In this document: piece by piece, positions 6,175 to 38,458 of the stretch
How the letters are laid out: every line of letters begins with the position of its first letter
How positions within the stretch are numbered: position 1 is the first letter of the stretch
Source of the DNA: a virus
Direction: 5' to 3' (one strand)
DNA: 64,000 bases
IMG/VR virus record: IMGVR_UViG_3300034071_002576
Location: 1 to 64,000 of that record
Made by a program: the position numbers and the translations under genes
Notes under the pieces: model-generated
The model's input: only the letters and a program-made list of their open reading frames with translations
Databases searched by the model: none
Told to the model about the DNA's origin: nothing

Positions 6175-7506
6175 ATGTCTTACACGAGCGAACAACTGAA
6201 AGCCATTGCACGGCAAAAAGCTCGTGAATTTGGTGTAAATGAAAATATCTTCTTGCGTTTAATACAAAAGGAGTCAGGCTGGAATCCGCGAGCGCGGAGT
6301 TCTGTTGGCGCGGAAGGACTGGGTCAACTGATGCCTCCCACGGCTAAAGGGCTTGGTGTGTCCAATGCTTACGATCCTGTTCAGAACCTAACAGGAAGTG
6401 CACGTTACTTAGGTCAGCAGCTCAAGCGCTTCGGGTCTTACGAAAAAGCACTAGCGGCGTATAACGCAGGTCCCGGAAACGTGGAACGCTATGGAGGTAT
6501 TCCTCCTTTTAAAGAAACTCAAAATTATGTGAAAACAATCTTAGAGGGAGCGCAGCCGCCGGCTGCTCGGCTGTCCTCACCCTCTGCTCCGCGCCAAGCT
6601 GCTCCTGCTCCGCGCCAAGCCACCCCTGCTCCCGTCGGCGCAGCTTCCCGTATTCAGCTGCCGAAATTTGATTTGCCGGGCGCACTTAAAACTCTGTTGC
6701 TGCGATCCGCCGTTCAAGGAGTCAGTGGTGACGGCGGGACGGCGGAAGCCATGCAGTTGCGCGCTCGGGCTGACGCTTTAGCTGAGGCGGGTTACGAAGA
6801 TGAAGCGGATGTTCTTGAGTCGCAATCCATTAGCAAGCTGGTTCAATCGACTCAACAGGTCGGCCTCGATCCCGCGACACTGGCGAAAAATATTCTCGAA
6901 CTAAGGCAGCAGCAACTTGCGTACAACGCAGAAGCTTCGCGAATCGAGAAAAGCCTTAACGACGTCGCCGTGGGACAGACGGCACAAGCTACTGGTGTTA
7001 ATACGCAAACAGGGGCTAAGCCTTCTCAAGGTTTCGCGCAAACTGGGAGAGGAATCGCGTATCCGAATGCTGTTGTCACCTCTGCCGTCGATGCCACGGG
7101 TGAACCTGGGTTGGATTTTGCGCTCGCGGGAGGTGCTAATGCAGTATTTGCGACGCCTTTCAATGCTCAGGTTCTGAAAGTCGTAAAAGACCCGAATCCT
7201 GCGAATCGCGGAGCTGGTGGCCGTGGTTATGGAAATTATGTGGAATTACGAGGTGTGACACCAGAAGGCAAATCCTTCGACACTCTGATTGCGCACTTTA
7301 ATAAACTCAATCCCAATCTAAAACCTGGCATGCGGTTAGCTGCCGGTACTCCTCTAGGACTTCAAGGCGAAACGGGTCGAGCGACGGGACCTCACATTTC
7401 GATGGACTTTTACGATCCAGGTGCTACAACAAGCAGTCCAGATATCCTGCGGATAAGAGATATTGTTGCTGATAGAATTAAAAAAGGCCAAGCACCTTTC
7501 GGATAA
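6175..7506 (+). CDS. virion-associated lytic transglycosylase (SLT) with degenerate M23 domain
   Basis: 443 residues. Residues 5-125 are a textbook SLT lytic transglycosylase: catalytic Glu in QKESGWNP, then [28 protein letters not shown] and the ETQNYV ending. This domain cleaves the MurNAc-GlcNAc bond in peptidoglycan. A Pro/Ala linker (about 127-160) and a helical region follow. Residues about 305-435 resemble an M23 beta-lytic peptidase ([26 protein letters not shown]), but the HxH zinc motif reads HIS and the first His ligand is missing. This domain probably binds cell wall rather than cuts it. Its length and position suggest a tail-tip enzyme that locally opens the wall at infection. 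TAATG overlap with the next gene. Confidence 0.85.
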
Positions 7507-13928: not shown

Positions 13929-13973
13929 GACTTTTAGCGAACTCATTCGGCCCCAAAACGGAGTTTATTGACC

Positions 13974-15251
13974 ATGGGTAAGATTCGTTTAACGGGTGCC
14001 ACTAGCGGATATACCGAAATTCAAGCCGCCAGTGCTGCAGGTAACAACACTATTACTCTGCCCACGACAAACGGAGGTCAGGTAATTGTTAGCGATAGTT
14101 CTGGAAATGTAAATATTGATAGCGGTACTTTTTATGTTGATGCTTCGAATAACCGTGTAGGGATTGGCACTACGAGTCCTAATACGACACTAGAAGTATC
14201 AAGAGCATCAAACAATTTAGGCATAACAGAAGTTCTTCGTATTGGAGGAACTGCAGCAACCACTGGCGATGGCTACAAGCTAACTTTTTATCAAACTGCT
14301 ATAGGAGAATATGGTTACGTAGGATCTTATTACACTGGCGGGGTAAATTGGAATACCGTAGTCAATGGCAGCGCTGGCCTTGAGTTTAGGATTAACAACA
14401 GCGAACGCGCCCGCATTACATCCGATGGGAAGCTTTTAGTTGGCACGTCTACTGGTCCTTCTGACACAACTGTTCTTTTTTCTGGTAACGCGGGTGACGG
14501 TTCTACAGGGGACGGAAGGCTGCATCTAAATCGCGGTTCGACTCCTGGTAACGGGGTTCAGCTTGGAGCGCTTTATTTTTCAAGTAATAACGGAGCCAAC
14601 CAAGGCGCTTCCGTTGTTGCAGTAAGGGATGGCGGCACTTGGACTGCTGGAAGCAGCCATCCAACGCTCTTAAAGTTCTCCACTACCGCCGATGGAGCGA
14701 GCAGTCCGACGGAGCGGATGAGGATTGATAACGCTGGTGGCAGTGCATTTTTTGCCTCTAGCGTTACTGCAGTTGCAGCAAGGAACGCAGCGGCAGCAGG
14801 AACATCAACCTATAACATCGCCGGTCTTCATTCAGCCACAAGCACCACCAACGGAACGCTTTCTTTTGCTGTTTACACAAACGGCAATGTCCAAAACACT
14901 AATAACAGCTACGGCTCGCTTTCTGATGCCAAGCTAAAAGAGAACATCGTTGACGCTACTTCCCAGTGGTCTGACATCAAGGCACTTCAGGTCCGCAAAT
15001 ACAACTTCAAAGAAGAAACCGGCCAAGAGACCCACACCCAAATCGGCCTGATCGCCCAAGAAGCTGAGCTTGTTTCCCCTGGCCTTGTCAGCGAATCCCC
15101 CGACCGCGACGAAGACGGCAACGACCTTGGCACCGTCACCAAGAGCGTCAACTATTCGGTGCTCTACATGAAGGCAGTGAAGGCGCTGCAGGAAGCAATG
15201 GAGCGCATCGAAACCCTTGAGGCCAAAGTTGCAGCCCTTGAAGGCGTGTAG
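13974..15251 (+). CDS. tail fibre with C-terminal S74 intramolecular chaperone
   Basis: 425 residues from the ATG at 13974 (GGAG 10 nt upstream). The body has fibre repeats such as NNRVGIGTTSPNTTLEV and NSERARITSDGKLLVGTST. From about residue 317 the sequence SDAKLKENIV begins an endosialidase-type (peptidase S74) chaperone domain. This domain trimerises the fibre and normally cleaves itself off just before that Ser. It ends in a coiled coil (ALQEAMERIETLEAKVAALE). Sequence blocks are shared with the fibre at 58362 and the inverted fibre at 59747. Likely host-recognition protein. Confidence 0.85.
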   Translation: MGKIRLTGATSGYTEIQAASAAGNNTITLPTTNGGQVIVSDSSGNVNIDSGTFYVDASNNRVGIGTTSPNTTLEVSRASNNLGITEVLRIGGTAATTGDGYKLTFYQTAIGEYGYVGSYYTGGVNWNTVVNGSAGLEFRINNSERARITSDGKLLVGTSTGPSDTTVLFSGNAGDGSTGDGRLHLNRGSTPGNGVQLGALYFSSNNGANQGASVVAVRDGGTWTAGSSHPTLLKFSTTADGASSPTERMRIDNAGGSAFFASSVTAVAARNAAAAGTSTYNIAGLHSATSTTNGTLSFAVYTNGNVQNTNNSYGSLSDAKLKENIVDATSQWSDIKALQVRKYNFKEETGQETHTQIGLIAQEAELVSPGLVSESPDRDEDGNDLGTVTKSVNYSVLYMKAVKALQEAMERIETLEAKVAALEGV

Positions 15252-16265: not shown

Positions 16266-16625
16266 ATGGCCTGCGGCAAGCATTGTGTTCTGGAGCTTTA
16301 CCGCGCCTCTGCGCAGAAACTTAACGATGAAGCTTTCATTCGCGATGCCTTGGCTGAAGCTGCCCGCGTGTCTCATGCGACTCTGATCGATATTAGAACT
16401 CACTCTTTTGTGCCTCAGGGCGTCACTGGCTTTGCGTTGCTTGCCGAGTCCCACATCTCCATCCACACGTGGCCAGAACACGGCTACGCCGCCGTTGACG
16501 TTTTTACCTGCGGGGATAAGACTGACCCGGAATTAGCCTGTTCATTTTTAGCTAAGGCTTTCGAGGCGGCGTCTAACCATATTCTTACTCTTGATCGATA
16601 TCTGCCTGATTTAATTCAAGTTTGA
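16266..16625 (+). CDS. speD: S-adenosylmethionine decarboxylase proenzyme
   Basis: 119 residues, the usual length of the short prokaryotic SpeD. The self-cleavage motif LAESHISIHTWPEHGYAAVD is intact: Ser62 becomes the pyruvoyl group, with His67 and Cys82 at the expected catalytic positions. The enzyme makes decarboxylated SAM for spermidine synthesis. speD is a recurrent auxiliary gene in cyanophages. No other polyamine gene is seen here, so the product would feed the host spermidine synthase. It lies between a glycosyltransferase and an HNH endonuclease gene on its own strand segment. Confidence 0.9.
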   Translation: MACGKHCVLELYRASAQKLNDEAFIRDALAEAARVSHATLIDIRTHSFVPQGVTGFALLAESHISIHTWPEHGYAAVDVFTCGDKTDPELACSFLAKAFEAASNHILTLDRYLPDLIQV

Positions 16626-20872: not shown

Positions 20873-21595
20873 GTGGATTCAAAATTCAGGGTGGATGTGC
20901 TGAACCAAACAGTGCATCCGCAAACTCTCGTTTGGTTCGCCCTTCATCAAGACTATTCGGAAACTTACGTTTTTACAGAAGATCCGCCGACTGAATCCAG
21001 AGCCGGTGAAGTTATTACTAAGCGGTTGCTCTCCGGTGAACGCGGGCACTACGGTCCGTTAGAGCACCCTTCCATCACATTTAGTTGCGGGTTTTTTCCT
21101 CACTCTGTGATGCAGCAGGCGCGCACACACCGCGTGGCCGTATCCTTCGACGTCCAATCGATGCGCTACACCGGCAATCGAATTTGCCAGGTCGCGGATG
21201 GTCTGCTGGACTTGGAGGATGTTTTCTATCTACGCCCCGTAGGCACCTACTCCGATCGTCAAGGTAAAAAATATACCTATACAGAGGAGCACCGCAGTGA
21301 AGATTTGATCCTTTGTAAAGCTGCCGCTCAGCGGTACTGCCATATGGTTCGGTACCTAGGACTCGCCGAGGAACACGCGCGAGGTATCCTGCCGTTCGAT
21401 TTTCGGCAGCACTTTGTCGTGACGTTCAGCATGCGGTCGTTCCTGCATTTCATGGACCTACGCAGCAAACTCGATGCTCAGGAGGAGATCCGCAATCTGT
21501 GCGACCTGATGTGGCCCCATTTCTCCGCGTGGGCACCCGAGATCGCTGCTTGGTATGAGAAGTCTCGCCTGCACAAAGCGCGTTTAGCTCCCTAA
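20873..21595 (+). CDS. thyX: flavin-dependent thymidylate synthase
   Basis: 240 residues from a GTG. The ThyX signature RHRx7S appears as RTHRVAVSFDVQSMRY. Other family landmarks are HYGPLEHPSITF upstream and FRQHFVVTFSMRSFLHFMDL near the C-terminus. ThyX makes dTMP from dUMP using FAD, NADPH and methylene-THF. Together with the dCMP deaminase at 63018 it would supply thymidylate for phage replication. It ends the rightward 20011-21595 group, followed by a GC-rich hairpin at 21605-21626. Confidence 0.9.
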   Translation: MDSKFRVDVLNQTVHPQTLVWFALHQDYSETYVFTEDPPTESRAGEVITKRLLSGERGHYGPLEHPSITFSCGFFPHSVMQQARTHRVAVSFDVQSMRYTGNRICQVADGLLDLEDVFYLRPVGTYSDRQGKKYTYTEEHRSEDLILCKAAAQRYCHMVRYLGLAEEHARGILPFDFRQHFVVTFSMRSFLHFMDLRSKLDAQEEIRNLCDLMWPHFSAWAPEIAAWYEKSRLHKARLAP

Positions 21596-21649: not shown

Positions 21650-22243
21650 TTATAACAGTTTCGTCCAGGGATCTACCGATTCTTGGACGTTTTCTTTTTT
21701 AGGTATTGTCGGTGTCTGCGGTTTAGGCATTGCCGGCATCTGCATGAGGATGCTTTGCATGGTTGCTACCTGCTGTTTGAGAGTCGTATTTTCAGCAACT
21801 AACGCCTCCGCTTGATTGCGTGCCCACGCTGTGGCGTTTGCCGTGAGCTGATCGAGTACATTTTCTGGATGCGGGAACTTGTAGAAAGTCCCCCCTTCCG
21901 TAAGCACCTTCTGCCCGCCTTGGTTTTCGGCCAGCGATTCCAGAAAAGTCTCGATTCGCTCTAGGTCTACGCCTGTTTCAAATGCGAGCTCTTGGGGGAC
22001 AAGCATCCCCATGTTTTTCGCGTAGAGCGCTGTAAATTTTTGAGCTACTCGTAAGCTCTCTGCTCGATCTTCTTTTTCTTTTCGTGTTAGTTCGCTTGCT
22101 GACGCAGCTCCGGCCAACAATCCACCAGCGGCCGCAACCGCCGTGGATAGATGGGCAGGCTGAACCAGGGCGACGGTAAAGGTCAGTACACCGCCGAACA
22201 GCAAGGTTGCGCCGTTAAGCAGACTCGACTGGGAGTTGATCAT
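21650..22243 (-). CDS. membrane-anchored coiled-coil hypothetical protein
   Basis: 197 residues from the ATG at 22243, which still overlaps the primase-helicase gene by 29 nt; a GTG at 22273 is an alternative. The N-terminus has two hydrophobic stretches (LNGATLLFGGVLTFTVALV and AVAAAGGLLAGAASA). A charged helical region follows, ending in a Gln-rich coiled coil and a Pro-rich tail. Function unknown; last gene of the long leftward replication run. Confidence 0.55.
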   Translation of the reverse strand: MINSQSSLLNGATLLFGGVLTFTVALVQPAHLSTAVAAAGGLLAGAASASELTRKEKEDRAESLRVAQKFTALYAKNMGMLVPQELAFETGVDLERIETFLESLAENQGGQKVLTEGGTFYKFPHPENVLDQLTANATAWARNQAEALVAENTTLKQQVATMQSILMQMPAMPKPQTPTIPKKENVQESVDPWTKLL

Positions 22244-24983
22244 GCGCTTCAAAAGCCGGTTTCCAGAGAACACTGTCAGGGTTAGAAGCCCACTCGACCG
22301 GAGACGGTAGGCGGTTTGAACCGGCCGCCGCTCGGTCAGTCGAGGGGTCGTACGGCTTCAATCGTAGTCCGGTGAACACGGCTTTGCCATTCACGAATTT
22401 AGGTCCAACACCTTCAACTTTGAGCACGTTCCTAATAGTTTCCTTGAGTCGATCGACGAAGCGAGGTTTAGCTGAATGCTTGTATCCGTTTGACTTACAG
22501 AAATTGACATAGCTCGCATACAGTTCTGCGTATGCGTTTTTGACGAACATACCTTTTTCCGCTTCGTCGGTGTTCGGCCTGAAAGCACCAGCCCCGATCA
22601 ACGCGTTGCTATTAGGTGCATACATCGTGCACTCCGCCAGCCACGCTACGTAGGGATTGTTAAAGATCAATGCTTCTAGGTTGGTCGCGTTGAGTGAGGG
22701 CACGTGCTTAACGGGGTTGGCTAGCACGTCCCGCATTTCGTCGAAGGGCATGTCGAGAGCCCAAGAGACCACGCCGCTAAGCTCAGGAACTAGGTCGCCT
22801 TCCAGTCGATCCGCGTAAATGTTCAGCAGATCTCGCCGTTGGGAGGGCGGCACTACTTTGTCCATGATGATCGTCAGTCGACGACGCTCCAGACCACTGC
22901 TGATGTCTGAGGAACTGATGTGCTCGTTAGAAGCGATACATACTAATACCTCGGGTTTAAAGTTTATTACTTCTTTGCCATACTTACGCTCTGCTCGTAA
23001 AGTATCTGATGCGGATGTAATCTTTTTAAGAACGTCTAAGCGCTTGTTGAAGTTAGCTTCGTCTGTAAGCAGCAGAAGCTTCTTACCAATCAGGTTATAG
23101 CATTCAAACTTGTTGGTTTCGATTGTTTCCAGGTTGCTGGTGTGCGTGCCGGAGAACCCAGCCAGCGCGATCAGGAGCTGCTGCATTGTCGATTTGCCGG
23201 TTCCGCCCGGACCCACTAGATGCAGAAAACGCTCGCCCGTCGTGTAGCCGGTCAGAAGCGCACGGCAGAATGCCCGGATGATGATTTTCTTGTCCTGCCC
23301 AATGCAGGAATCCAGCCACGCGTGGAAATTCGGGCACTGGGCAGCTTTGTCATACGGGAATGCAAGCTTGCTGCGAAGGTAGAGTTCCTTCTGGCAACCT
23401 TCTTGGAACCCCATCGAATCCCCGTTTAGCACACCGTTTTTAAACGGGATCTTGCCTTTGCTGCTGCTCCAGATGGATACCCGACCGCCGTTAACGGACT
23501 TAAGTAGTTTGCCCTTCAGAATCTGGAAAACTGAGCTAACGGTTGATGCGCTGTAACGCGGCATCACGCCCGCGGTTACGAAAGTATCCAGTGTTTTTAT
23601 AATTCTTCTTTTGATGTGCTGTTCGTCCTGTACGTACCAGATACCCTCATCTAAGTCGTACGTGAAGAACTCGTCCAGAGATGAGTCAAATAGAAATTCA
23701 TTACCGTAGTTATTTACGATGATGTCTGCGACATCGTTCTCGGAAAACTGACGGTTTCCTTGCTGCAGCTGCACCAGCTGAGCCGGAGTTGACGGCGTGG
23801 AAGCCATGGGATCTGGGGGTGTTGATGTTGGTGTTGATGTTGCTGTCGGCTTCGCATCCATCTCTCGAACGAGATCGTCGAAAGTCAGGACGGAGTTGGT
23901 CGGCTTGGGCTTCTTTGATGCAATTTCTGTACGTACTTTTTCCGTACAGGTGGTCTCAAAGATTTCTCGATATGTGCTCTTGAGTCTTTTCCATGCAGCT
24001 AGAGACCCGTCCTCTGATGCCATGACCACGGCCGGCTGCAGAGCGTCTGGATCTGTGATGCTGTTCAGGATCCGATTAAATTTGCCATCCAGCACAGGGT
24101 CGTATTCGTAGATATTCTCGAACACCCGGTGTGCGATTGTCAAGGGGGGTTCGCGTGTTGCAATCCCCTGAGCGTTCAGCCAGTTGCTCCAGCCGATGAT
24201 CTCCTTTAGGGCTATCGCCAAGGCGAAGGAGCGATCCTCCACCTCCTCGCCGTCCAGCATCGACCTGACTGTTCCGCTAACTAAGCGCTCTAGGGCGACC
24301 CCTTCTGAAGACTGCTGAGTGTGCAGGTGCTGCTCCGCGTCTCTCGCGGTCTCTTCCGGCGGAGGAAGCGTGGCGTAGACCGCATAAGCTTCGTCGATTT
24401 TTGAAGCTGGTATGAATCTATCTGTGACTACCAGTAAGCTAGAAGTTCCCTTTCCACCGTAAAATAAATTGACGGCTTGGGTAGCACGTCGATCTGATCC
24501 TGGTATTTGCTGCGCAATATGCCTGGTGAACCACTGGTAGAAGCCAGCATCAATAATTGGCTTCTCTAAACCAAACACCAGTCGGAATCTGGGCCACGTC
24601 TCTGTGTGAGACGGAGATAAATAAGCAAGACTCAGATATTTGTTACATATATCCAGCTCTAGTGCTTGAGCTACGTCCAGTTCTTGTTTTTGTATCTTGT
24701 TGCCGTCTTTATCTTTCCCGTCTGCTTGGTTGTCAATGTCGATGATTATGACACCGGCTTTGATTGCGCCCGTGTTTCCTTCACGTCTTCGTCCATCGAC
24801 CAGATGCCAGGCACATAAACCAGCCTGCTGCGTGGTGACAGCGTCGGCTAGAGCCGCAATGTCCTTCTCTTGGGGAAGCCAATTGTTGTTGAAAGCGGCA
24901 AAGTTCCCTCCTGCCGCAATCTTACCCGTCGCAGGGTTGACGTACTCAGAGACTGCGTAGTTGATCGAGAAGAAAAAGTCCAT
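22215..24983 (-). CDS. primase-helicase (AEP/PrimPol-like N-terminus, D5-type SF3 helicase)
   Basis: 922 residues. Residues about 75-180 resemble archaeo-eukaryotic primases (VIIIDIDN, then YLSPSHTETWPRFRLVFGLE). A linker with Pro/Thr repeats follows (near 395). From about residue 430 come a D5 N-terminal-like segment and an SF3 helicase: Walker A GPGGTGKST (near 590), Walker B-like LLLLTDEANF, sensor-type VCIASNEH and SGLERRRL. SF3 helicases of this type unwind and prime phage DNA as a single polypeptide. It groups with the nuclease, SSB-like and PolA genes on the same strand. Confidence 0.85.
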   Translation of the reverse strand: MDFFFSINYAVSEYVNPATGKIAAGGNFAAFNNNWLPQEKDIAALADAVTTQQAGLCAWHLVDGRRREGNTGAIKAGVIIIDIDNQADGKDKDGNKIQKQELDVAQALELDICNKYLSLAYLSPSHTETWPRFRLVFGLEKPIIDAGFYQWFTRHIAQQIPGSDRRATQAVNLFYGGKGTSSLLVVTDRFIPASKIDEAYAVYATLPPPEETARDAEQHLHTQQSSEGVALERLVSGTVRSMLDGEEVEDRSFALAIALKEIIGWSNWLNAQGIATREPPLTIAHRVFENIYEYDPVLDGKFNRILNSITDPDALQPAVVMASEDGSLAAWKRLKSTYREIFETTCTEKVRTEIASKKPKPTNSVLTFDDLVREMDAKPTATSTPTSTPPDPMASTPSTPAQLVQLQQGNRQFSENDVADIIVNNYGNEFLFDSSLDEFFTYDLDEGIWYVQDEQHIKRRIIKTLDTFVTAGVMPRYSASTVSSVFQILKGKLLKSVNGGRVSIWSSSKGKIPFKNGVLNGDSMGFQEGCQKELYLRSKLAFPYDKAAQCPNFHAWLDSCIGQDKKIIIRAFCRALLTGYTTGERFLHLVGPGGTGKSTMQQLLIALAGFSGTHTSNLETIETNKFECYNLIGKKLLLLTDEANFNKRLDVLKKITSASDTLRAERKYGKEVINFKPEVLVCIASNEHISSSDISSGLERRRLTIIMDKVVPPSQRRDLLNIYADRLEGDLVPELSGVVSWALDMPFDEMRDVLANPVKHVPSLNATNLEALIFNNPYVAWLAECTMYAPNSNALIGAGAFRPNTDEAEKGMFVKNAYAELYASYVNFCKSNGYKHSAKPRFVDRLKETIRNVLKVEGVGPKFVNGKAVFTGLRLKPYDPSTDRAAAGSNRLPSPVEWASNPDSVLWKPAFEAHDQLPVESA

Positions 24984-25871: not shown

Positions 25872-26237
25872 TCAGAACGACATCTGAAATGGTCGAGAGT
25901 CTGTATCTTCATCATCGTCGTCATCTTCTTCGTCGTTTCCCACACTGTCTTCATCTTCGTCGGAATCCAAAAAGAATTCAGATTTTTGGTAGTCGAAGTC
26001 GCGGTTGTGGCTGCTCAGCTCTTCGGCGAGGCAAAGACCTGCGCAATAAGAGTCGGTAATAATCTCCGCGCACTCAGCGGCAGATCTAGCGGTTCCCTCC
26101 GGTGAGACACACTCCTGGAGAAGTTGGTCGGACACCAGTAGGGCTGTGACTTTTTCGAGAAGTGTATTTGTTTTTGTGAGTTGATCCAGAACATCGCGTT
26201 GGAACTTGTCAAATTTTTGCCGCCGAGTCATTGTCAT
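25872..26237 (-). CDS. acidic-tailed hypothetical protein
   Basis: 121 residues from an ATG in an ATGA overlap with the upstream gene. A helical, coiled-coil-like N-terminal half is followed by a run of Asp and Glu (DSVGNDEEDDDDDEDTDSRP) and the ending FQMSF. An acidic tail ending in aromatic residues is reminiscent of SSB proteins, which recruit partners that way. No OB-fold is recognisable, so this is only analogy. Confidence 0.55.
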   Translation of the reverse strand: MTMTRRQKFDKFQRDVLDQLTKTNTLLEKVTALLVSDQLLQECVSPEGTARSAAECAEIITDSYCAGLCLAEELSSHNRDFDYQKSEFFLDSDEDEDSVGNDEEDDDDDEDTDSRPFQMSF

Positions 26238-26776
26238 GTTAAAGAAGGCAGAGGGTCTACACGATCCCAGTCCAGACCAAAGGTTATCTGAGTTCCGTCG
26301 TGCCACTGCTCGGGGCGTTGGAAGACAAACCAGCAGCTGGTGACGGAATCCCGCGTGGAACCAATGGCGCGAAATTTGGGACGCGGATTAAGGACAATCA
26401 TATTGCTGATCTTGTTTGCTAACAGAAAGCTTTTACGTTTGGCTACTGGTTCTATGAACGACAGTCGGTCTAGTACAGCTATGCCTTGTGTTGCAATTTG
26501 GATGCCGTATTCAAGTATATACTCTGTGTAGTCTCCTAAGCCTGTTGTTGCTGCTATGACCCAATCAAACTTTTTCTCTTTCTGACCGACCCACCAGACG
26601 GGATCCATTAAGTTTGTTTCATCCTTGTTTTCAACGACGTTAAAGTTATGACGTCGCAGTTGGTCACTCAGTATCGACAACGGATCAAATGGGACTAAGA
26701 CTGAGCCTGTGATAAAACTGTGTTTTATGAGAGCGTGGGTGACCCCGTTTGGGAGTTGATAAAAAGAATCTGCCAT
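26234..26776 (-). CDS. N6-adenine methyltransferase-like protein without NPPF motif
   Basis: 180 residues. The chain tracks phage SAM-dependent adenine methyltransferases: LPNGVTHALIK, then SVLVPFDP at the SAM-binding position (usually VLEPxxGxG), DWVIAATTG where the catalytic xNPPF should be, then GIAVLDRLSFIEPVAKR, LNPRPKF and SCWFVFQRP. Both the SAM glycine loop and the catalytic tetrapeptide are altered, so methyl transfer is unlikely. It is conserved enough elsewhere to suggest a retained non-catalytic role. It is the second such protein here (see 8297-8875). Confidence 0.55.
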   Translation of the reverse strand: MADSFYQLPNGVTHALIKHSFITGSVLVPFDPLSILSDQLRRHNFNVVENKDETNLMDPVWWVGQKEKKFDWVIAATTGLGDYTEYILEYGIQIATQGIAVLDRLSFIEPVAKRKSFLLANKISNMIVLNPRPKFRAIGSTRDSVTSCWFVFQRPEQWHDGTQITFGLDWDRVDPLPSLT

Positions 26777-26868
26777 TGGTCGGGTTGTAGGACTGTCAGA
26801 GTTTAACCAAAATTTCCGGTCTACCCGGTAAATGCTGCCTATTATGACGTCAGTGCATTCTGTAGATT

Positions 26869-27117
26869 ATGTTAAATCTGGAATGGCTGAACACGGAACA
26901 AGAGTTTTTACATAAGCGAGTTTGCGGAGATTTTGCTAAGCTCGACCGAGAACAAATGAAAGATGTTTTTGAATCGGTGCATAAACAGTATTTAATCAGG
27001 AACAGCTTGTTTTCTCGTTTGGCCTCTTGGTGCGCCCGCAACGGAGTGGTCTTGCCTGCCTTTGAGGAGTTGCTTTCCCCGAAAGAAGTTCAGCATCCGA
27101 CTCCCTTGGAGGAATAA
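26869..27117 (+). CDS. nblA: NblA-like phycobilisome degradation protein
   Basis: 82 residues on the opposite strand to the surrounding replication genes. Residues 4-52 align without gaps to NblA by eye: TEQEF (consensus EQQF), then DREQMKDVFESVHKQYLIRN and LFSRL (consensus S/DRExxxDxFxxxxxQxxxR/E...F). NblA is a small two-helix adaptor that brings phycobilisomes to the Clp protease, freeing amino acids. Phage copies are known in freshwater cyanophages and in uncultured marine ones. The protein is about 20 residues longer than usual at the C-terminus. No close Shine-Dalgarno is seen. Confidence 0.68.
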   Translation: MLNLEWLNTEQEFLHKRVCGDFAKLDREQMKDVFESVHKQYLIRNSLFSRLASWCARNGVVLPAFEELLSPKEVQHPTPLEE

Positions 27118-27141
27118 AAAAAGCGGTCGTGAGACCGCTTT
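27113..27141 (-). terminator. intrinsic terminator, leftward
   Basis: AAAGCGGTC and GACCGCTTT form a perfect 9-bp stem with a 4-nt loop. On the minus strand it is followed by a run of T. It lies 27 nt beyond the stop of the 27168-27983 gene, so it ends that leftward transcript just before it would run antisense into nblA. Confidence 0.85.
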
Positions 27142-27167: not shown

Positions 27168-27983
27168 TCAAAAGTCGATACCTAGAGCTTTTGCTTGTTC
27201 CGCCGTAAGTTCGATTGGTTTTTTCGCCTTCGCACTAGGTGGTTCGTTCTCGACTTTTTCGTCCGCTTCCGCAGACTTCAGAGCCTTTGCTGGCCCTGCG
27301 CTAGCGAATGAACGTTCCGGGGGCGCGCCTCGCTCGGCAGCAAATCGAGCTTTGATTTCAGTATGATCTGCACCCAAGGGCAATTCGACCAAATCTGAGC
27401 CGGGGATGTGGGACTTGAGTGCCGACGCACACAGAGTGCCTCCCTTGTCGACAAGCCAACTGTTAACGTCTTCAATCAATTTGATTTCCTCCTCGTTCGC
27501 CGGCGGTCTGTCGGAGAATTCGAGAGCATTAAAATTGATCTTCGCGCCATCGGCGCCGGTCATTGGATCCCGCTCATTAAAGCTGCGAGTCACGAATTTC
27601 GTCGTGGTGATCACCGACGCGCAGTTGATTCGATTGTTGTAGAGCGTCTGGAAGTAACTGATGAAGTTCTTCTGAGAAGACTTGCCTGAAATCATCGAAG
27701 TCGTTACGCAACGCGGAGGCAACAACCTGTGATTTGGGCTGACTCCGATGTAAGCAATGCGCAGAAATTCTTCTTGGTTGCGCATACCTAGGTTGCCGAA
27801 GTAAGGAGTAAATCCCACCAGGACAAACTCAATAGGGATTCCGTTGTCGTTCCTATCGACAATCGCAGAGTCTGGGTCGACATCAGATTTCCAACGTCGA
27901 GCCTGTAGATCTATTCGAAGTGTGTGCGGCGGTACATTACACAGAATTTCGTCTTGGGAGAATTGACCAGCAATGAAAACCAT
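27168..27983 (-). CDS. hypothetical protein in replication cluster
   Basis: 271 residues. The first 200 look globular (QFSQDEILCNVPPHTLRIDL; VLVGFTPYFGNLGM). The rest is a low-complexity Ala/Lys/Glu tail ending in AEQAKALGIDF. I do not recognise the fold. Its place directly after the SSB-like gene and before a strong terminator suggests an accessory role in replication or recombination. Confidence 0.6.
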   Translation of the reverse strand: MVFIAGQFSQDEILCNVPPHTLRIDLQARRWKSDVDPDSAIVDRNDNGIPIEFVLVGFTPYFGNLGMRNQEEFLRIAYIGVSPNHRLLPPRCVTTSMISGKSSQKNFISYFQTLYNNRINCASVITTTKFVTRSFNERDPMTGADGAKINFNALEFSDRPPANEEEIKLIEDVNSWLVDKGGTLCASALKSHIPGSDLVELPLGADHTEIKARFAAERGAPPERSFASAGPAKALKSAEADEKVENEPPSAKAKKPIELTAEQAKALGIDF

Positions 27984-27996
27984 GGTTAGTACTTAA

Positions 27997-28641
27997 TCAG
28001 AGGGAGAAGTCAATAGAACCGATAGCAGCAGCAGCTACTTTACCTTTTTCAGGGTCGACAGCTTTCTTTGGAGCTTGTTTAGAGGACTTGGGGAGGTAGA
28101 GGATCTTATCTACAGTGTAATTGAGATAATTCCTATCATCCTTTTCACTTGTTGAGACCTTGCCTACTGCGATAGTAGGTGTGCCCGGTGCGAGTTCAGA
28201 AAGCTGTTTAGACAGTTCACCCCAGGCTGTCATCTTGAACCAAGCTGTTTCGTTTTCTTCCGTTTGCCATGCAAGTGAACGATTAGTTACCGTCGTATCT
28301 GAAAGTTCTACTTCATCGGCTTTAGGGCCAAGACCGCCCGTCGCCATGAAAACGTTGATGGCGAGGAGATCTTCGAAGTTATCTTCTGTCACAATCAACA
28401 TGGGTTGCATTTTCAACACACCATCAATTGTTGGTTTAGTAGGTCCGAGTGCGAGAACGGTTTGTCCTACTTCGAGTTTTTTAAGTAGTTTTCCTACATA
28501 GTGACTCGCTTGTTGGAGGAGTTGAAATTTTGTTTCGACTCTTTTGTCATTTGACGGAAGGGATTCGGCTAGAACATTTACGATGCCGTCGTTATCATCC
28601 GCCGCGGCGGTGATTTTCAGGCCCATTAGAAACAGATTCAT
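27997..28641 (-). CDS. single-stranded DNA-binding (OB-fold) protein, SSB-like
   Basis: 214 residues. The C-terminal half carries an SSB-like OB signature: SLAWQTEENETAWFKMTAWG, then ELSKQL, IAVGKVST and LNYTVDKILYLP. This is the order of strands seen in bacterial SSB (ETxWFxVxxWG...xYxVxxIxxL). A Lys/Pro/Ala-rich tail ends in IGSIDFSL, a hydrophobic tip like those SSBs use for partner binding. Expected to coat ssDNA for PolA and the primase-helicase. Overlaps the upstream regulator gene by 47 nt. Confidence 0.6.
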   Translation of the reverse strand: MNLFLMGLKITAAADDNDGIVNVLAESLPSNDKRVETKFQLLQQASHYVGKLLKKLEVGQTVLALGPTKPTIDGVLKMQPMLIVTEDNFEDLLAINVFMATGGLGPKADEVELSDTTVTNRSLAWQTEENETAWFKMTAWGELSKQLSELAPGTPTIAVGKVSTSEKDDRNYLNYTVDKILYLPKSSKQAPKKAVDPEKGKVAAAAIGSIDFSL

Positions 28642-29193: not shown

Positions 29194-30423
29194 TTACTTT
29201 CGCTTGCCGCCACCGCCACCTCCGCCGCCTCCGCCGCCGCCACCTCCGCCGCCGCCACCTCCGCCGCCGCCACCTCCGCCGCCGCCACCTCCGCCGCCGC
29301 CACCTCCGCCGCCGCCGCCACCTCCGCCGCCGCCACCTCCGCCGCCGCCGCCACCTCCGCCGCCTCCGCCGCCGCCTCCGCCACCGCCGCCACCGCCACG
29401 GTTGCCGCCACCGCCACCTCCGCCGCCACCGCTAGGTGCAGGAGAAGGAGCAGGTGCCGGAGCAGGTGCCGGAGCAGGCGCTGGTCTTGCTGCCGGTGCG
29501 GCTGCTGGTGCCGGGCGTGCTGCAGGAGCTTGACGAGCAGGTTCTTGTTGTTTCGGTACATTAAATTCTTTGTTTTGTTGCGCTGCTTTGTTTTGCGGAG
29601 CTTTAGCTGCTGAAGGAGAGGCGAAGAGCGTGGGAGCTTTATTACTTTGTTGTTGGCCTCCGCCAGCGGGTTTGACGGTGAACCCACCGTCTGCAGCTGG
29701 TTTAACCTTGATGCCGAGTTCTTTTTGCGCTGCGGCTGAGGGGGCTATTGCTGATCTCGATGCAGCTTTGATTATCTGATTCTCGGATAAACCCTGCTTC
29801 TGTAAGTATTTAATATCTTGTGTGTTGAATCCCGCTCCACCTCTTTTAGCTAAATCAAATGTTTGGCCTGCGACTTTAACAATATTTGTTTTTTTAGCAG
29901 GAGTCGTTTGCGTTTGCGTTTGCGTTTGAGTTACTTCGGGGGCGGCTTCTTCCGCACCTAAATAATCGTTTAAATAATCATCCAAGTAAGACTGAAAGTC
30001 AAACTCTTCGTAGCCTCCGTCCCCTCCTGCGCCAGTATCTCCGTAGTCTCCAAAACCGCCAGAGTCTCCGAAATCGAAAAAAGATGTGTCAAACTCACCG
30101 CCGGTTAAATCTGAGTATTGTTGACCCTGCAAGCTTTGCAGCAAATCATCAATACCTAGTTGCTTACGTAAATCAGCCATTTTCGCAGCCGTGGCCTCAG
30201 TCGCCGCCGCTTTTTGTTTCGCTATAGCTTCTTCCAGCGCTTTTCGCGCTGATTCGCGTACGGCAAATCCTTCCTGCCTTTCCGTCTCTGACGAGGGACC
30301 TATTCGCCGACTTCCTTGGAGTTTGAATACTCCGGTGTACGCTTTTTCTTGAACTGCCTTAGTTAAGTCCGTCCCTGTTGTTCCTGGCAGTGTTCTGGGC
30401 GCAGATGCTAGTCGCCGAGCCAT
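29194..30423 (-). CDS. polyglycine-tailed putative virion protein
   Basis: 409 residues. The N-terminal 110 are helical, residues about 110-150 are Gly/Asp/Phe-rich, and about 180-225 form a small domain (GQTFDLAKRGGAGFNTQDIK then YLQKQGLSENQII) shared with the next gene upstream. A Pro/Ala tract precedes the tail, where 73 glycines in two runs (9 and 64, broken by Asn-Arg) lead to GKRK. The glycine codons form a nearly pure GCC/ACC/TCC-type microsatellite at 29206-29430. Function unknown; the length of the tract probably varies between isolates. Confidence 0.6.
   Translation of the reverse strand: MARRLASAPRTLPGTTGTDLTKAVQEKAYTGVFKLQGSRRIGPSSETERQEGFAVRESARKALEEAIAKQKAAATEATAAKMADLRKQLGIDDLLQSLQGQQYSDLTGGEFDTSFFDFGDSGGFGDYGDTGAGGDGGYEEFDFQSYLDDYLNDYLGAEEAAPEVTQTQTQTQTTPAKKTNIVKVAGQTFDLAKRGGAGFNTQDIKYLQKQGLSENQIIKAASRSAIAPSAAAQKELGIKVKPAADGGFTVKPAGGGQQQSNKAPTLFASPSAAKAPQNKAAQQNKEFNVPKQQEPARQAPAARPAPAAAPAARPAPAPAPAPAPAPSPAPSGGGGGGGGGNRGGGGGGGGGGGGGGGGGGGGGGGGGGGGGGGGGGGGGGGGGGGGGGGGGGGGGGGGGGGGGGGGKRK
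29206..29430. repeat. GGN-codon microsatellite encoding polyglycine
   Basis: 225 nt built on the plus strand from CCGCCGCCACCT-like units, interrupted only by ACGGTT at 29398-29403. Strong strand bias and extreme local GC in an otherwise roughly 50% GC genome. It should be prone to slippage in steps of 3 or 15 nt. The minus strand is G-rich with many GG runs. Confidence 0.9.
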
Positions 30424-31831: not shown

Positions 31832-33730
31832 TTACTTCGCCGACCAGTCATCGCCTATGCCCGGTTCCGCTACTAATCTCGTTTTTTCGAACACAGACGC
31901 ACCAGCATTTACCATGATTTCGGCAAGCTTATCTTTCCAGAAATTCTCCAATCCTTCTCGGACTTCTAGTACGCATTCATCGTGTACCACTGCGATTAAA
32001 CGCACATCGTTGTTTAGATGGTCATTAAGCTCGCCGAGCGCTACTTTTAAAATGTCCGCACCTGTCCCCTGGATTAGTGTGTTAGCTGCGATTGTCATTC
32101 GAGCATCGTCGTACGACAGCAACCGACGCCGCCCCAGAGCGGTTCGCGTGTAACACCAGCCGTCTTGGACTAAAGCGCCGCGTTGACGGTGCCATTCCCT
32201 CAGGCGCGGGTACGCACTGTGGAATTTACTGTGCAGTATCTTGCTCTCCGACAGACTTAGCTGTACGCCGAACGAAGCCGCTGCGTATGTTTTGAACTTA
32301 CGGAACCCAATTCCATAAATAAACCCGAAGTTGGCTCCTTTAGCCATCTGCCTCTGTTGCTTTGTGACGTCTGATATATCGCAGTCATTTACTAAGCTTG
32401 CTGTGAGTGTGTGCAAATCTATGTCGGTATTGTACGCTTCTTGCATTTGAGGGATGTTAGCTAACTCCGCGAGTAGGCGTAATTCCATCTGCGAGTAGTC
32501 CGCGATGATCAGTTTGTACCCAGGAGACGCTACAAAGGCTTCCCGAAATAGTTTTGATCGCGGAACCTGCTGAAGATTCACAGCGAACGTTGTTTTTGTT
32601 TTAGTCTTAGCCGTTTTCGGCGCCCCTGCGCACGTAAACCGACCACTGTTGGCGCCCACTTGATTGTAGAAGCTGTGGATCCTGTGAGTTACTGGGTTTA
32701 TGTTCTGAATCAGCTTTTCAGCATGCTCTAGACTTGTTTCAATTTTTACGCGTTCTCGGTACAGCAGAAGCACTGCATCTTTGCTATCAAACTCCGCCAG
32801 CGATATTTGGTTCAGTGTGCTTTTTCCTGTCTCTTCGTTCTGAGGCAACGCGATACCGCACAGGTCAAAAGCCTTTGCCACTTGCGTGGTCGAACCGGGG
32901 TTAAATTCCTTGTTTGCCTTCTTGCCCACGGCTACCGCGCCGTCCACTGTCCGAGGCAGTTTGTTTTCTGCGGGGAGTTTCGCGTCTAATGCTTCTACAA
33001 ATTCTGTTGTTTTTTCGTTTAATTGTGTCTCCAAACTTACCTTAAGTTTATGTAAACGTTCAGTATTAACGTTGAATCCTGTGTAACTCATTTTTGCTAC
33101 GGGGCGTATGCACTTTGATTCAATACTGTAGACTCCTATTAAAGCTTCCTCGTTCAGTTCTTTTAGCTGCTCCGCTGCGATTTTTGGAAGAATATCGACG
33201 TCTGTCGCCGCATACTCGACTTGGTCGAGTGTCAAAGTTTCTGCGCTCCAGTCCGTTTTGCGTTGTTCTTTATCTAGTTCTATTTCTAGTCGACGTTCAG
33301 CGACTGCCTTGAGCGAGCAGGATACGTCGGCGAAATAAGGTTTGTTGGATTTAGGTGAGTATTTTTTCTCTTGAAATCCCGCCCTTAAAACTCTTTCGGC
33401 TATATACGTGTCAAATATTTTATTCTTGTAGTCGATACCTAAAGAGTAGAAAAACTGTAAATCGAAGCCTAAGTTGTGCCCTAGGAGTAGTTCTCGACTC
33501 TCGATTAAAATTTTTAACTCATCTAGAACAGATGTTTTGAAGATATCAATTACGTGAATCGTTCGGTCTTCGACAGCGGGGGAGGCGTCGCAGAGCTGAA
33601 CCAACCGACATTTTGACACCGTGGCCTGAAGCCCTGTTGTTTCTGTATCAGCACATAGTTTGCTGAACTTGTCCAACTCGTTTATCGCCTTTAGTGCTTC
33701 TGCGTCTTCGGTGATGTAATTGATTTTCAT
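31832..33730 (-). CDS. polA: DNA polymerase, family A, with 3'-5' exonuclease
   Basis: 632 residues. Exonuclease domain: ADTETTGL (DxE, residues about 28-34), GHNLGFDLQFF and the YAATDVDILPKI end motif, so proofreading residues are present. Polymerase domain: motif A LIIADYSQMELRLL, motif B RQMAKGANFGFIYG, and motif C VHDECVLEV. It lacks a 5' nuclease domain, as is usual for phage enzymes. This is the replicative polymerase of the module that includes the D5-type primase-helicase. It begins just after a terminator, so it probably has its own promoter or depends on readthrough. Confidence 0.92.
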   Translation of the reverse strand: MKINYITEDAEALKAINELDKFSKLCADTETTGLQATVSKCRLVQLCDASPAVEDRTIHVIDIFKTSVLDELKILIESRELLLGHNLGFDLQFFYSLGIDYKNKIFDTYIAERVLRAGFQEKKYSPKSNKPYFADVSCSLKAVAERRLEIELDKEQRKTDWSAETLTLDQVEYAATDVDILPKIAAEQLKELNEEALIGVYSIESKCIRPVAKMSYTGFNVNTERLHKLKVSLETQLNEKTTEFVEALDAKLPAENKLPRTVDGAVAVGKKANKEFNPGSTTQVAKAFDLCGIALPQNEETGKSTLNQISLAEFDSKDAVLLLYRERVKIETSLEHAEKLIQNINPVTHRIHSFYNQVGANSGRFTCAGAPKTAKTKTKTTFAVNLQQVPRSKLFREAFVASPGYKLIIADYSQMELRLLAELANIPQMQEAYNTDIDLHTLTASLVNDCDISDVTKQQRQMAKGANFGFIYGIGFRKFKTYAAASFGVQLSLSESKILHSKFHSAYPRLREWHRQRGALVQDGWCYTRTALGRRRLLSYDDARMTIAANTLIQGTGADILKVALGELNDHLNNDVRLIAVVHDECVLEVREGLENFWKDKLAEIMVNAGASVFEKTRLVAEPGIGDDWSAK

Positions 33731-35310: not shown

Positions 35311-36861
35311 TTAGCGGAGACACTTTTGAATCGCATCCACAGCTTTCTCTGTGTTGTAAACGTTCACGGAATACACCTCATCGCTAAATCCTCGGCACAC
35401 ATCCGGGATGTCCGTGTTTATGCAGACAGTTGACCACTGGGTACCTGTTGCTGCTTTGAACGTGTTTACCTTTCGTTTGAGGGTTTCGTTGATGTCCGAG
35501 TGACCGTCCGTAATCATCAGAATGTCTGCTCGCGAATCTCGACAGCCTTTGTCGACCGCGTGGCTTAGTACGGCATTGAAGCTCGTCCCTCCGCCGAGAA
35601 TCCAGGTTCCTATGAAATCCAGCATCGTCGAGAGGTTGTTGCTCTTAGGGATTAGTTCGACTGTGTGCTCTATGCGCGTATCGAACAAGTTTATGAAAAC
35701 TTTTCGGTTTTCTTTCAGTGCTTCTTCCGCGACCACAAATGCGATGGCCTTGCTCCAGAGCTCAGGTTCTCCGCTCATAGAACCGGAGACATCGATATAC
35801 ATAACAACAGGACCTTTGCCTAGATTTTTTTGCTGAGCTGTGTAGTCTTTTGTGAGTATAGTCTTTTGGGAGAATTTCAGGGCAAATAATGCGCGCCCCT
35901 GGGGGGTTCCTGCCAGCGCGAGCTCTGCTGGAAAAGCTTTGGTGACATCGTTGCTGAAGGTTGCTCCTGTGATTGCCTCGTAGTTTGCCGAAGCGCTCTT
36001 AGCCCTCTTTCGTTGAAGCCACACGCGACGCAGAGCCCCGAGTTTTTTTGTCAGTGCGCGAAGCTGTTTACTGTTCTTGAGCCTGTTAGCTAATTCTTTT
36101 TTCTCCTTGAGGTCGTTTGTTTGCCTGCCTTGACCGGGCTGCAACCCGTGGAGAGTAGACAATGCCTCTTCCGTTTCGTCGCTTTCCTTTATTACTTGAT
36201 CGATAATCTGGCTCGCTTGCGGTTGGAGTCTTTCCGCAGCTTGTTGGATAGCGTCGTTGATTGCCTGATTCAGTGCCTTGCCTGCTCGCCGCGCTTCGTT
36301 TGCTTTTTGAGTGTCTCCCTCTTTCTGGGCTTTTTGAAACTGCTCCCTGAGTTCCTGCAGTTTTTTGTCTGCTGCTGTAAGGAGCTCGACGTCGAATTGA
36401 TTCTCCTCTATCGCTTTCTGAATAACTTCAGATAGTTTGTTGAGGATATTTACGGAGTTGTTCCCAGAGTTGAACTGGTTACCCACGCAACGCGTGAGTA
36501 GCTCTGTCCAGCCAGCAGCTTGGGATAAGTCAGCCATGATTGCATACCATATTCCATTCTCTGGTTTATACCCTTCTGGTATTGCCGCGCTATCGCCGTC
36601 GCAAACCTTTCGGAAATACTGTTCGTAGGCGTCTTCCGTGACGAGCCAGTTGACGTTGTCACCGTTATAGAGTCTGTCAAATAGCTCCTTCCCGAAGCGA
36701 GACAGTTGTTTGATGTTGTGATGGTCGATTAGGTAGGTAACAACAGGACGGCTTTCTCTGATGAAGTCATCCCATAGAAAATCCGCCAGCGCAGAACAAG
36801 CGAGCGTTAGAGGCTCGTTGTTGACGAGACGAACGAATTCTGAGTGCGTGTCAAAGTTCAT
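35311..36861 (-). CDS. von Willebrand A-domain protein, CobT/ViaA-like
   Basis: 516 residues from the ATG at 36861; the frame runs further up, but a small gene overlaps there. Residues about 170-300 are coiled-coil and Lys/Gln/Ala-rich. The VWA domain begins near 355 with a complete MIDAS: YIDVSGSMSG (DxSxS), GGGTSFN (Thr) and MITDGHSD (Asp). Paired with the MoxR-type ATPase upstream, it fits the MoxR/VWA systems (RavA-ViaA, CobS-CobT), in which the ATPase remodels or inserts metal into a target recognised by the VWA protein. Target in phage infection unknown. Confidence 0.8.
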   Translation of the reverse strand: MNFDTHSEFVRLVNNEPLTLACSALADFLWDDFIRESRPVVTYLIDHHNIKQLSRFGKELFDRLYNGDNVNWLVTEDAYEQYFRKVCDGDSAAIPEGYKPENGIWYAIMADLSQAAGWTELLTRCVGNQFNSGNNSVNILNKLSEVIQKAIEENQFDVELLTAADKKLQELREQFQKAQKEGDTQKANEARRAGKALNQAINDAIQQAAERLQPQASQIIDQVIKESDETEEALSTLHGLQPGQGRQTNDLKEKKELANRLKNSKQLRALTKKLGALRRVWLQRKRAKSASANYEAITGATFSNDVTKAFPAELALAGTPQGRALFALKFSQKTILTKDYTAQQKNLGKGPVVMYIDVSGSMSGEPELWSKAIAFVVAEEALKENRKVFINLFDTRIEHTVELIPKSNNLSTMLDFIGTWILGGGTSFNAVLSHAVDKGCRDSRADILMITDGHSDINETLKRKVNTFKAATGTQWSTVCINTDIPDVCRGFSDEVYSVNVYNTEKAVDAIQKCLR

Positions 36862-37081
36862 TTGATGGTTTGCTTGTGTCGGTGCTGGTTTCCGAGAGTT
36901 CATCCGTAATAGCTTTCCGATAACCCCAGGCTGCCGCCGTGGCCGCCAACCTATGGATCGGGTCCTCACAATCCGGATGCCGAGAGTCCTGCAGGATCGA
37001 AACCCACCAGGACTCTACGAGCTCTGCTGAAAGTTCCTTACGTAATCCTTTACTTACTGATGTCACTGATAGCTCGCGCAA
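36851..37081 (-). CDS. small protein related to the 43361-44572 family
   Basis: 76 residues bridging the MoxR and VWA genes, overlapping them by 32 and 11 nt. Contains WWVSILQDSR and HRLAATAAAWGYRKAITDEL. The AAxAAxWGY core recurs in the tandem family at 43361-44572 (AARAAQWGYEQ). Codon overlap with both partners suggests co-translation. Function unknown. Confidence 0.5.
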   Translation of the reverse strand: MRELSVTSVSKGLRKELSAELVESWWVSILQDSRHPDCEDPIHRLAATAAAWGYRKAITDELSETSTDTSKPSNEL

Positions 37082-38237
37082 GGGTATCGCAGTGATTTTG
37101 GAGAGTTTGCTGAAGTTTAACTCCGGAGCTGCGTGTGCTCGCAGACATTCTCAGCTTGGACCCGTCCAACAGTTCTGAGACTTTATCCCTTACTGTTGTC
37201 ATGTCTTTAGCGTATTTACGTAGTTGAACAACAAAATCATTAAGCTCACTCAAACCTTTGACTCGGTAGCGATGGCTGTGTGTGCTGTACTCGGCCATGA
37301 TTCCTGCAGCAGCTCTCTTCGCGTCTGAAAACACTTTGTCCGCTGTGGGGACCTCCTGCTCTAGAACCTCCTTAATGATGTCTTGATCCTCCCCTGATTG
37401 GTAGACAATGTGAATCAAACTACCGTGCATATGTTCAGGGAATAACTCGTCGTCACCTTGGACAACAGCCCATGCTTTGAGAAACTTGAGGATTTGAACG
37501 CGGCGTCTATCGCTGATCGTGATCGCTCGGGTGCCCAGCATCTCCCAGACCGAACTGAACTTATCTAAGAATTCCGCTGATACCGAGATTTGCTCGGCTT
37601 CAGTCTGCAGTTCAGCTAGTTCGTTGAGGGTTAAGTGCTCGCCCACCGCGGGGCGCTTTTCCATACCCAGACCCCATGCGTCCAGCTTCCTCTTAGATAC
37701 GGGTTTTTGCAAGAGGTTAACTGTAGGGCGAAATAAGAAACGATCGGCAAAAGCCTGCAGTGACTCTTCGTCTGGCCAGCTGTTCGTCGCAGCGATGATC
37801 GATTGGATGGGTGTCTCGATATTCTCTTTACCGTTGTTAAACGTCCTCTCGTTCAACAGAGTGAGTAGTGAATTAAGGATCGCAGAGGATCCACGAAACA
37901 ACTCGTCTAAGAATCCGATGTGAGCTGTAGGCAGATAACCTTCTGTGTCGCGGGTGTACTCGTCGGCCAGCAGTTTGGTCACTGCAACAGGACCGAACAC
38001 CTCGGATGGATCCGTCGTGGGGGTGAGCAGGTATCCGAAGTAGTTTGCTCCGCTTATCCCTCCGCAAACGCTCCGCACTAGATCTGACTTACCTGTACCG
38101 GGTAGACCTAAGAGGAACGCGTTTTGCTTGCTCAACAGCGACGCAAGCAATCCGTCAATAACTGGACCGCGTTCCAGATGTGCTGCGCTGAGTGCGCCGC
38201 GGAAGTTTTGAAGCTTGGTGAAGAGTTGATCGTTCAT
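37050..38237 (-). CDS. MoxR-family AAA+ ATPase, RavA/CobS-like
   Basis: 395 residues from the ATG at 38237. AAA+ motifs: Walker A LLGLPGTGKS (near 45), the MoxR-type TTDPSEVFGP loop, Walker B HIGFLDELFRGSSAILNSLL, sensor 1 IIAATNSW, and arginine finger FADRFLFRP. The C-terminal 200 residues are helical. MoxR ATPases work with VWA proteins to mature or remodel complexes; CobS-type forms chelate cobalt in cobalamin synthesis. No chelatase large subunit is present, so a chaperone role is more likely. In an operon with VWA and DUF3150-like genes. Confidence 0.85.
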   Translation of the reverse strand: MNDQLFTKLQNFRGALSAAHLERGPVIDGLLASLLSKQNAFLLGLPGTGKSDLVRSVCGGISGANYFGYLLTPTTDPSEVFGPVAVTKLLADEYTRDTEGYLPTAHIGFLDELFRGSSAILNSLLTLLNERTFNNGKENIETPIQSIIAATNSWPDEESLQAFADRFLFRPTVNLLQKPVSKRKLDAWGLGMEKRPAVGEHLTLNELAELQTEAEQISVSAEFLDKFSSVWEMLGTRAITISDRRRVQILKFLKAWAVVQGDDELFPEHMHGSLIHIVYQSGEDQDIIKEVLEQEVPTADKVFSDAKRAAAGIMAEYSTHSHRYRVKGLSELNDFVVQLRKYAKDMTTVRDKVSELLDGSKLRMSASTRSSGVKLQQTLQNHCDTLARAISDISK

Positions 38238-38458
38238 GGTTTGATTGTGAGTGGTTGGTAGCCGATTGGGTGCGGAAAAGGAATGCAGTGCATGTTCACT
38301 CTGCACTCTGTTACTAAAGACTTTGTTAGTGTCGCTAGCTTTTTAACGGCAGTGTCATACTCGACAAAAGTGACAGCTTCGAAAATGTTTGATGTGTACT
38401 TTTCGATGTCACACAAATAGCCTTTCGACGATTCGATGACATAAACGAGTCGATCCAT
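38234..38458 (-). CDS. hypothetical protein between ATPase and DUF3150-like genes
   Basis: 74 residues, MDRLVYVIESSKGYLCDIEK at the N-terminus. Overlaps the ATPase gene by 4 nt and the preceding stop by 1 nt, so certainly in the operon. No motif recognised. Confidence 0.6.
   Translation of the reverse strand: MDRLVYVIESSKGYLCDIEKYTSNIFEAVTFVEYDTAVKKLATLTKSLVTECRVNMHCIPFPHPIGYQPLTIKP

Follow-up and report, generated by a model that had tools for sequence, protein, structure and literature searches.

A divergent, C-terminally extended NblA-like gene in a conserved antisense slot of a phage lineage related to S-EIV1

The locus and its genes

The virus record (IMGVR_UViG_3300034071_002576) is 86,340 bases long, and the window analyzed here covers its first 64,000. 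Two of its genes concern us: the gene at 26869-27117, which we term A, and the gene at 5881-6135, which we term B. A is an open reading frame on the plus strand that runs from ATG to TAA and encodes 82 amino acids, set antisense among the replication genes; B lies ≈21 kb from A, between virion genes and a lysis enzyme. The features to which we refer throughout are the following.

26869-27117, plus strand: A, the NblA-like gene; product of 82 aa, with the NblA core in residues 6-53 and a conserved C-terminal extension in residues ≈54-72
26234-26776, minus strand: left neighbor of A, encoding 180 aa and pointing away from A, with 92 nt between the two genes; weakly matched to DNA methyltransferase in PHROGs (E 2.8e-6)
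27168-27983, minus strand: right neighbor of A, 271 aa, no function assigned; end of the leftward operon
27113-27141, minus strand: intrinsic terminator that closes the leftward operon, directly next to the 3' end of A
26840-26845, plus strand: TATTAT, a weak candidate for a -10 hexamer, with 23 nt between it and the start codon of A
27997-28641, minus strand: SSB-like protein (Pfam SSB, E 3e-4, under the cut-off)
22215-24983, minus strand: D5-type primase/helicase (DUF5906, D5_N)
31832-33730, minus strand: DNA polymerase, family A type, to the right of the SSB-like gene and further unassigned genes
5881-6135, plus strand: B, the second NblA-like gene, in the virion/lysis module; product of 84 aa whose residues 16-64 form the NblA-like core
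6175-7506, plus strand: transglycosylase/endolysin-domain protein, downstream of B

The replication region also encodes a protein with a very long terminal poly-glycine run (29194-30423, minus strand), next to low-complexity neighbors. A MoxR-type AAA ATPase and a von Willebrand A domain protein adjoin one another at 35311-36969 and 37050-38306, both on the minus strand. Three related tail-fiber-like proteins are encoded at 13968-15251 (plus), 58362-59477 (plus), and 59747-61342 (minus); the ends of the first two products are alike and resemble an intramolecular chaperone.

A codes for protein, and the selection acting on it is purifying. Relatives occur at 43 viral loci and represent 16 distinct proteins, and searches with the Pfam NblA model (PF04485) and with a profile of the A family recovered more distant ones, down to 38% identity (L117). 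Between A of the window and one relative (L018), dN is 0.061 and dS is 1.94; for most other pairs dS is saturated and dN stays below 0.61. Summed over pairs, the differences at codon positions 1, 2, and 3 number 1416, 977, and 2481, a pattern that fits the plus frame and leads us to reject a spurious ORF. The antisense ORF at 26850-27041 was also set aside, since most A relatives have stops in the region of its frame. A tblastn search of A against 50,697 phage records returned short matches only (best E 0.3), all of them in non-cyanophages.

A is a divergent homolog of NblA

The initial annotation, made from the letters of the DNA, read A as an nblA-like gene on the strength of a gapless alignment over about 47 residues, and both the reading and the alignment are borne out here. 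In a Pfam search of the protein, NblA (PF04485) is the best of 24,736 families (E 5e-5, 24.1 bits), with residues 10-51 of A matching profile positions 5-46 of 50 without a gap, although the score falls 0.9 bit below the curated cut-off of 25 bits. Two relatives of the window phage (G007 and G009) score 25.4 bits each and exceed this cut-off, and in both the matching gene is an A gene in the same slot; across the 34 records scanned with PF04485, the third to pass is Ma-LMM01 with its known nblA (52 bits). Because the window protein lies just under the cut-off and two of its slot relatives lie over it, we file A as a divergent NblA homolog and not as a formal Pfam member. Among the 18 members of an alignment of the family (A4), 15 match NblA at E ≤ 0.1; DUF4158, the next family, is matched by four (best E 0.0029).

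Comparison of profiles gives the same assignment. Our NblA reference profile holds 10 sequences, namely three PDB stretches, Ma-LMM01, PaV-LD, and five from IMG/VR; seven of the 10 come from phages, six of these being Ma-LMM01-like, and host NblAs are compared through PDB sequences and Pfam only. The profile of the A family (23 sequences) aligns with it without a gap over 48 columns, with a probability of 94.1 and a score of 40.7, against at most 16.2 in 200 column shuffles and 8.5 for the reversed profile. The full record of 86,340 bases has 232 ORFs of 70 aa or more; of these, scored one by one against the NblA profile, A ranks first (31.5) and B second (26.8), and the third reaches 20.5. 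A chance resemblance of A to NblA is rejected by the shuffles, the reversed profile, and this ranking. A search of 177,635 PDB sequences with an A-family profile (A2) placed NblA 3cs5 first, again without a gap (E 0.017). The motif EQxF, in the form EQDF, EQEF, EQNF, or EQSF, is present in all 23 A sequences examined. According to one source (PMC4103541), a conserved motif near the N terminus of NblA binds ClpC; EQxF may correspond to it.

AlphaFold2, run on the monomer, predicts helices at residues 5-22, 27-58, and 65-69 (mean pLDDT 67; residues 1-15 below 50), which with moderate confidence describes a helical hairpin followed by a short C-terminal helix. Foldseek searches of the model (PDB and BFVD) and VIA returned no NblA, a result that is undecisive for so small a helical model. 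NCBIfam has no match for A or B, and its cut-off of 100 is far out of reach for the NblAs of Ma-LMM01 and PaV-LD as well; PHROGs gave nothing for A at E ≤ 0.1 (best E 0.24). The A2 profile found no match in nine known phage records, among them the nblA carriers Ma-LMM01 and PaV-LD. PF04485 in turn has no match in S-TIM5, S-SCSM1, P-SSP7, or Syn5; since S-SCSM1 and S-TIM5 are published nblA carriers, absence by PF04485 means little. Overall, the family search and the profile comparisons identify A as a conserved, divergent NblA homolog.

A conserved C-terminal extension

The 20 or so additional C-terminal residues remarked on in the initial annotation are real, and they are conserved. Twelve columns of A4 are invariant (E10, Q11, F13, H15, K24, L47, F48, W54, C55, L62, P63, and L68), of which the last five fall outside the NblA core. 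Among 13 non-redundant members, mean pairwise identity is 0.54 in the core, 0.59 across residues 54-72, and 0.25 over the last 10 residues. That the extension is as conserved as the core itself argues for a functional element rather than a ragged tail. Cyanobacterial NblA has its described phycobilisome-binding residues at the C-terminal side, where A carries this conserved block of its own. We infer that it probably selects the phycobiliprotein target or a partner.

An antisense slot and its transcription signals

Between 22215 and 33730 the genes lie on the minus strand, and on our reading of the ORF list A is the one plausible exception, as its first description as a lone plus-strand gene had it. 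That description overlooked both the conservation of the antisense placement and the second NblA-like gene, B. Gene order was examined at 39 loci, consisting of 29 of the 43 A loci (14 were left out), L112, and L114-L122. At all 39, A is opposite in strand to its neighbors wherever these are present, and the 180-aa and 271-aa genes are each found at 38. The antisense single-gene slot of A is a feature of the lineage.

One of these loci, L112 (JAURMN010000017.1), is the only contig that a scan of genome contigs turned up and is titled as a Balneolales MAG. It carries the A slot together with the phage neighbors, and its gene order indicates that it is probably a mis-binned piece of a related phage.

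The terminator that the initial annotation had placed at the end of the leftward operon, beside A, was found on the minus strand, with a stem of nine pairs (27141-27120), a loop of four, a T-rich tail, and a folding z of -3.5. Placed just beyond the 3' end of A, it would halt leftward transcription before this could enter the gene in the antisense direction. A GC-rich stem beside a run of adenines is visible by eye 3' of A in nine of 16 relatives. On the upstream side, a sigma-70 scan found no promoter; in 10 of 16 relatives the best TATAAT-like hexamer (at least four of six matches) ends 21 to 23 nt ahead of the start codon, a count made without a chance control. The antisense slot, the stem after A, and this hexamer together make it likely that A is separately transcribed.

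A second NblA-like gene in the virion and lysis module

The PF04485 scan of the window's own record gave a further match at 5929-6066 (14.5 bits, E 0.005), which lies inside B; the B protein scores 14.2 bits (E 0.06) against Pfam NblA. NblA is hit at E ≤ 0.1 by 19 of 28 B members, the strongest of them at 0.0012; one other family is matched, by a single member. In profile-profile comparison, B aligns with NblA without a gap over 49 columns (probability 80.0, score 30.7), with 200 shuffles reaching at most 21.4. In a PDB search with the B profile, NblA 1ojh ranks third (E 0.93). The predicted helices of B span residues 19-34 and 37-65 (mean pLDDT 66), and Foldseek on this model returned no NblA. 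PHROGs gave one unrelated weak family only, and tblastn of B against the 50,697 phage records gave no match. Where NblA and A have EQxF, all 28 B members have EDEF. Direct paralogy of A and B was rejected, as their profiles score 12.8 against one another, no more than shuffled profiles can reach (up to 18.5 in 200 runs). A single B-profile match in S-SCSM1 (E 0.025) lies within a lectin gene but out of frame with it, and was dismissed as chance.

Relatives of B occur at 53 viral loci. Upstream of B, on the opposite strand, a ferritin-like gene and an 88-aa gene are present at 53 of 53; an 82-aa virion-region gene occurs at 42 of the loci. The ferritin/Dps-like gene thus stands antisense inside the virion module with the 88-aa gene, which is helix-turn-helix-like, at every B locus; its product in the window (4556-5095, minus strand) is 52% identical to that of S-EIV1.

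Co-occurrence of A and B was examined in 28 records, comprising the window's own, 26 picked among B relatives, and S-EIV1. A is present in 14, all of which carry B, an association that is partly built in, as 26 of the 28 records were picked for carrying B. The same does not hold for the 271-aa neighbor, which is present in 13 of the 28 records, with A in all 13. The 13 lineage records that lack A also lack this neighbor; since both are missing, these contigs probably end before the region.

A cyanophage lineage related to S-EIV1

Comparison of the record's ORFs by tblastn with S-EIV1 (KJ410740), a phage of Synechococcus sp. PCCC-A2c, gave identities of 68% for the capsid, 43% for the portal, 51-52% for the terminase, and 52% for the ferritin-like protein, along with many weaker matches that include the primase and polymerase. 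These matches place the window phage as a distant relative of S-EIV1, a kinship that makes a cyanobacterial host likely. An S-adenosylmethionine decarboxylase (16266-16625, plus strand) and ThyX (20873-21595, plus strand) both have S-EIV1 counterparts.

No psbA-type gene was detected in eight lineage records, with two matches in the S-TIM5 control; Ma-LMM01, which carries nblA, is also without psbA. No hli-type gene was found in the same eight records, with two matches in S-TIM5 and one in S-EIV1, the latter in a region interrupted by stops.

S-EIV1 itself encodes a hypothetical protein, AHV82245.1 (73902-74222; L136:34902-35222), that is NblA-like and lies beside a second lysozyme gene. It scores 17.4 bits (E 5.9e-4) against PF04485 and, against the NblA profile, gives a probability of 68% and a score of 28.7, with 100 shuffles reaching at most 20.1. 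No match to the A profile or the B profile was found in S-EIV1, and we classify this ORF as a third, separate NblA-like sequence. In one survey (PMC5332604), the S-EIV1 group makes up 3.3% of cyanophage abundance in the marine samples, and hli and ptoX, not nblA, are listed for it.

A probable role in phycobilisome degradation

Most work on photosynthesis in marine cyanophages has dealt with psbA-type genes, which keep photosystem II running. A lineage in which eight records lack psbA and which carries two NblA-like genes points to an opposite strategy, the dismantling of the antenna. We think it probable that A is a phage-borne, divergent NblA, a proteolysis adaptor that would dismantle host phycobilisomes through ClpC and the Clp protease. 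Transcription of A would start from a plus-strand promoter of its own, early or midway through infection, with the replication operon active on the opposite strand. The protein would dimerize, bind host phycobiliproteins by one face, and present them to the host ClpC chaperone, and the host Clp protease would then take the phycobilisomes apart. For a phage that lacks psbA, the gain would be released amino acids and a lower excitation pressure. The location of B in the late module would suit a two-step action or a mixed dimer with A. Among phages of other lineages, nblA genes are expressed during infection and cause phycobilin loss when expressed in model cyanobacteria (PMC9602691).

Two other readings of A must be weighed against this one. 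A could descend from NblA and still dock on ClpC, yet use its extended C-terminus to hand a different host protein, such as one of defense or replication, to the Clp protease in place of phycobilisomes. The invariant EQxF beside a new C-terminal block (W54, C55, L62, P63, and L68) that is as conserved as the core (0.59 versus 0.54 mean pairwise identity) would suit such retargeting, as would the position of A beside replication genes at 39 of 39 loci examined. We consider it unlikely, however, as the NblA match spans both helices, including the face thought to contact phycobiliproteins, and the NblAs of other cyanophage lineages act on phycobilisomes (PMC9602691). Alternatively, A may belong to the replication module as a small helical-hairpin protein with no kinship to NblA, perhaps one that binds DNA or has a regulatory task, and its likeness to NblA may have arisen by convergence. 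Short helical proteins are prone to spurious matches, the Pfam score of the single protein is under the curated cut-off, Foldseek did not return NblA, and the gene sits in the replication region. Shuffled and reversed profiles of the same composition nevertheless score far lower, no other ORF of the record comes near A except B (31.5 and 26.8; next 20.5 of 232), and the phage belongs to a cyanophage lineage, all of which leaves convergence improbable, to our minds distinctly so. A divergent NblA that acts on phycobilisomes is the reading we retain for A.

The second gene, ≈21 kb off, suggests that removal of the host antenna may have two parts. We propose tentatively, as a possibility short of an expectation, that this uncultured S-EIV1-related lineage carries a two-component NblA system made of the extended A and a separately derived B. 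The two might form an obligate heterodimer, by analogy with that described for Synechocystis NblA1/NblA2, or they might be staged, with A acting first and B late or even delivered with the virion, in two timed or two-target steps. B may, on the other hand, be no NblA but a protein with a comparable hairpin and a late role in the virion or in lysis, leaving the genome with one NblA-like gene. Its low Pfam score (14.2 bits, E 0.06), its position between virion genes and a lysis enzyme, the third-ranked PDB match to NblA (E 0.93), and the S-EIV1 protein that matches the NblA profile and not the B profile all speak for this. We find it possible but doubtful, given the gapless profile alignment over 49 columns (probability 80.0; 30.7 versus at most 21.4 in 200 shuffles), the NblA matches of 19 of 28 members at E ≤ 0.1, against one other family hit by a single member, and the NblA-like ORF of S-EIV1 that adjoins its own lysozyme gene.

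Comparison with known NblA systems

Phage nblA genes are known from freshwater phages, marine podoviruses and myoviruses, and marine metagenomes (PMC9602691). The literature searched, some of it accessible only in part, contains no report of nblA in S-EIV1, of a phage with two nblA genes, or of an extended, paired form; the data of Nadel et al. 2019 may include the lineage.

With cyanobacterial NblA (PF04485; 1ojh, 2q8v, 2qdo, and 3cs5), A shares gapless homology across both helices, the EQxF motif, and the predicted helix-loop-helix. It differs in its conserved C-terminal extension, in its length of 82 aa, about one-third more than is typical, and in its score of 24.1 bits. The freshwater cyanophages Ma-LMM01, MaMV-DC, and PaV-LD likewise encode an NblA, and Ma-LMM01 likewise lacks psbA. 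The NblAs of Ma-LMM01 and PaV-LD are short, score 52 and 45.4 bits with PF04485, and occur as one match per record, whereas A is diverged and extended, sits antisense among the replication genes, and has B alongside it in the genome. Among marine cyanophages, S-SCSM1 ORF237 and the NblA-like proteins of S-TIM5 and of cyanopodoviruses are likewise distant homologs from picocyanobacterial phages recognized by profile (PMC9602691). The S-SCSM1 protein has 54 aa and scores 24.2, with gaps, against the NblA profile (31.5 for A and 26.8 for B, as single sequences), and it matches neither the A nor the B profile.

Just as the window phage has two NblA-like genes, Synechocystis has two NblAs, NblA1 and NblA2, which form an essential heterodimer according to the title of Baier et al. 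2014, as cited in PMC7966870. Unlike that pair, A and B are phage-borne, lie ≈21 kb apart in different modules, and have no direct mutual similarity. The conserved extension and the pairing of A with B could reveal how NblA picks its phycobiliprotein target. S-EIV1 belongs to the same broad lineage and has an NblA-like ORF of its own, but one that matches neither the A nor the B profile; because S-EIV1 has a cultured host, that ORF makes the idea directly testable.
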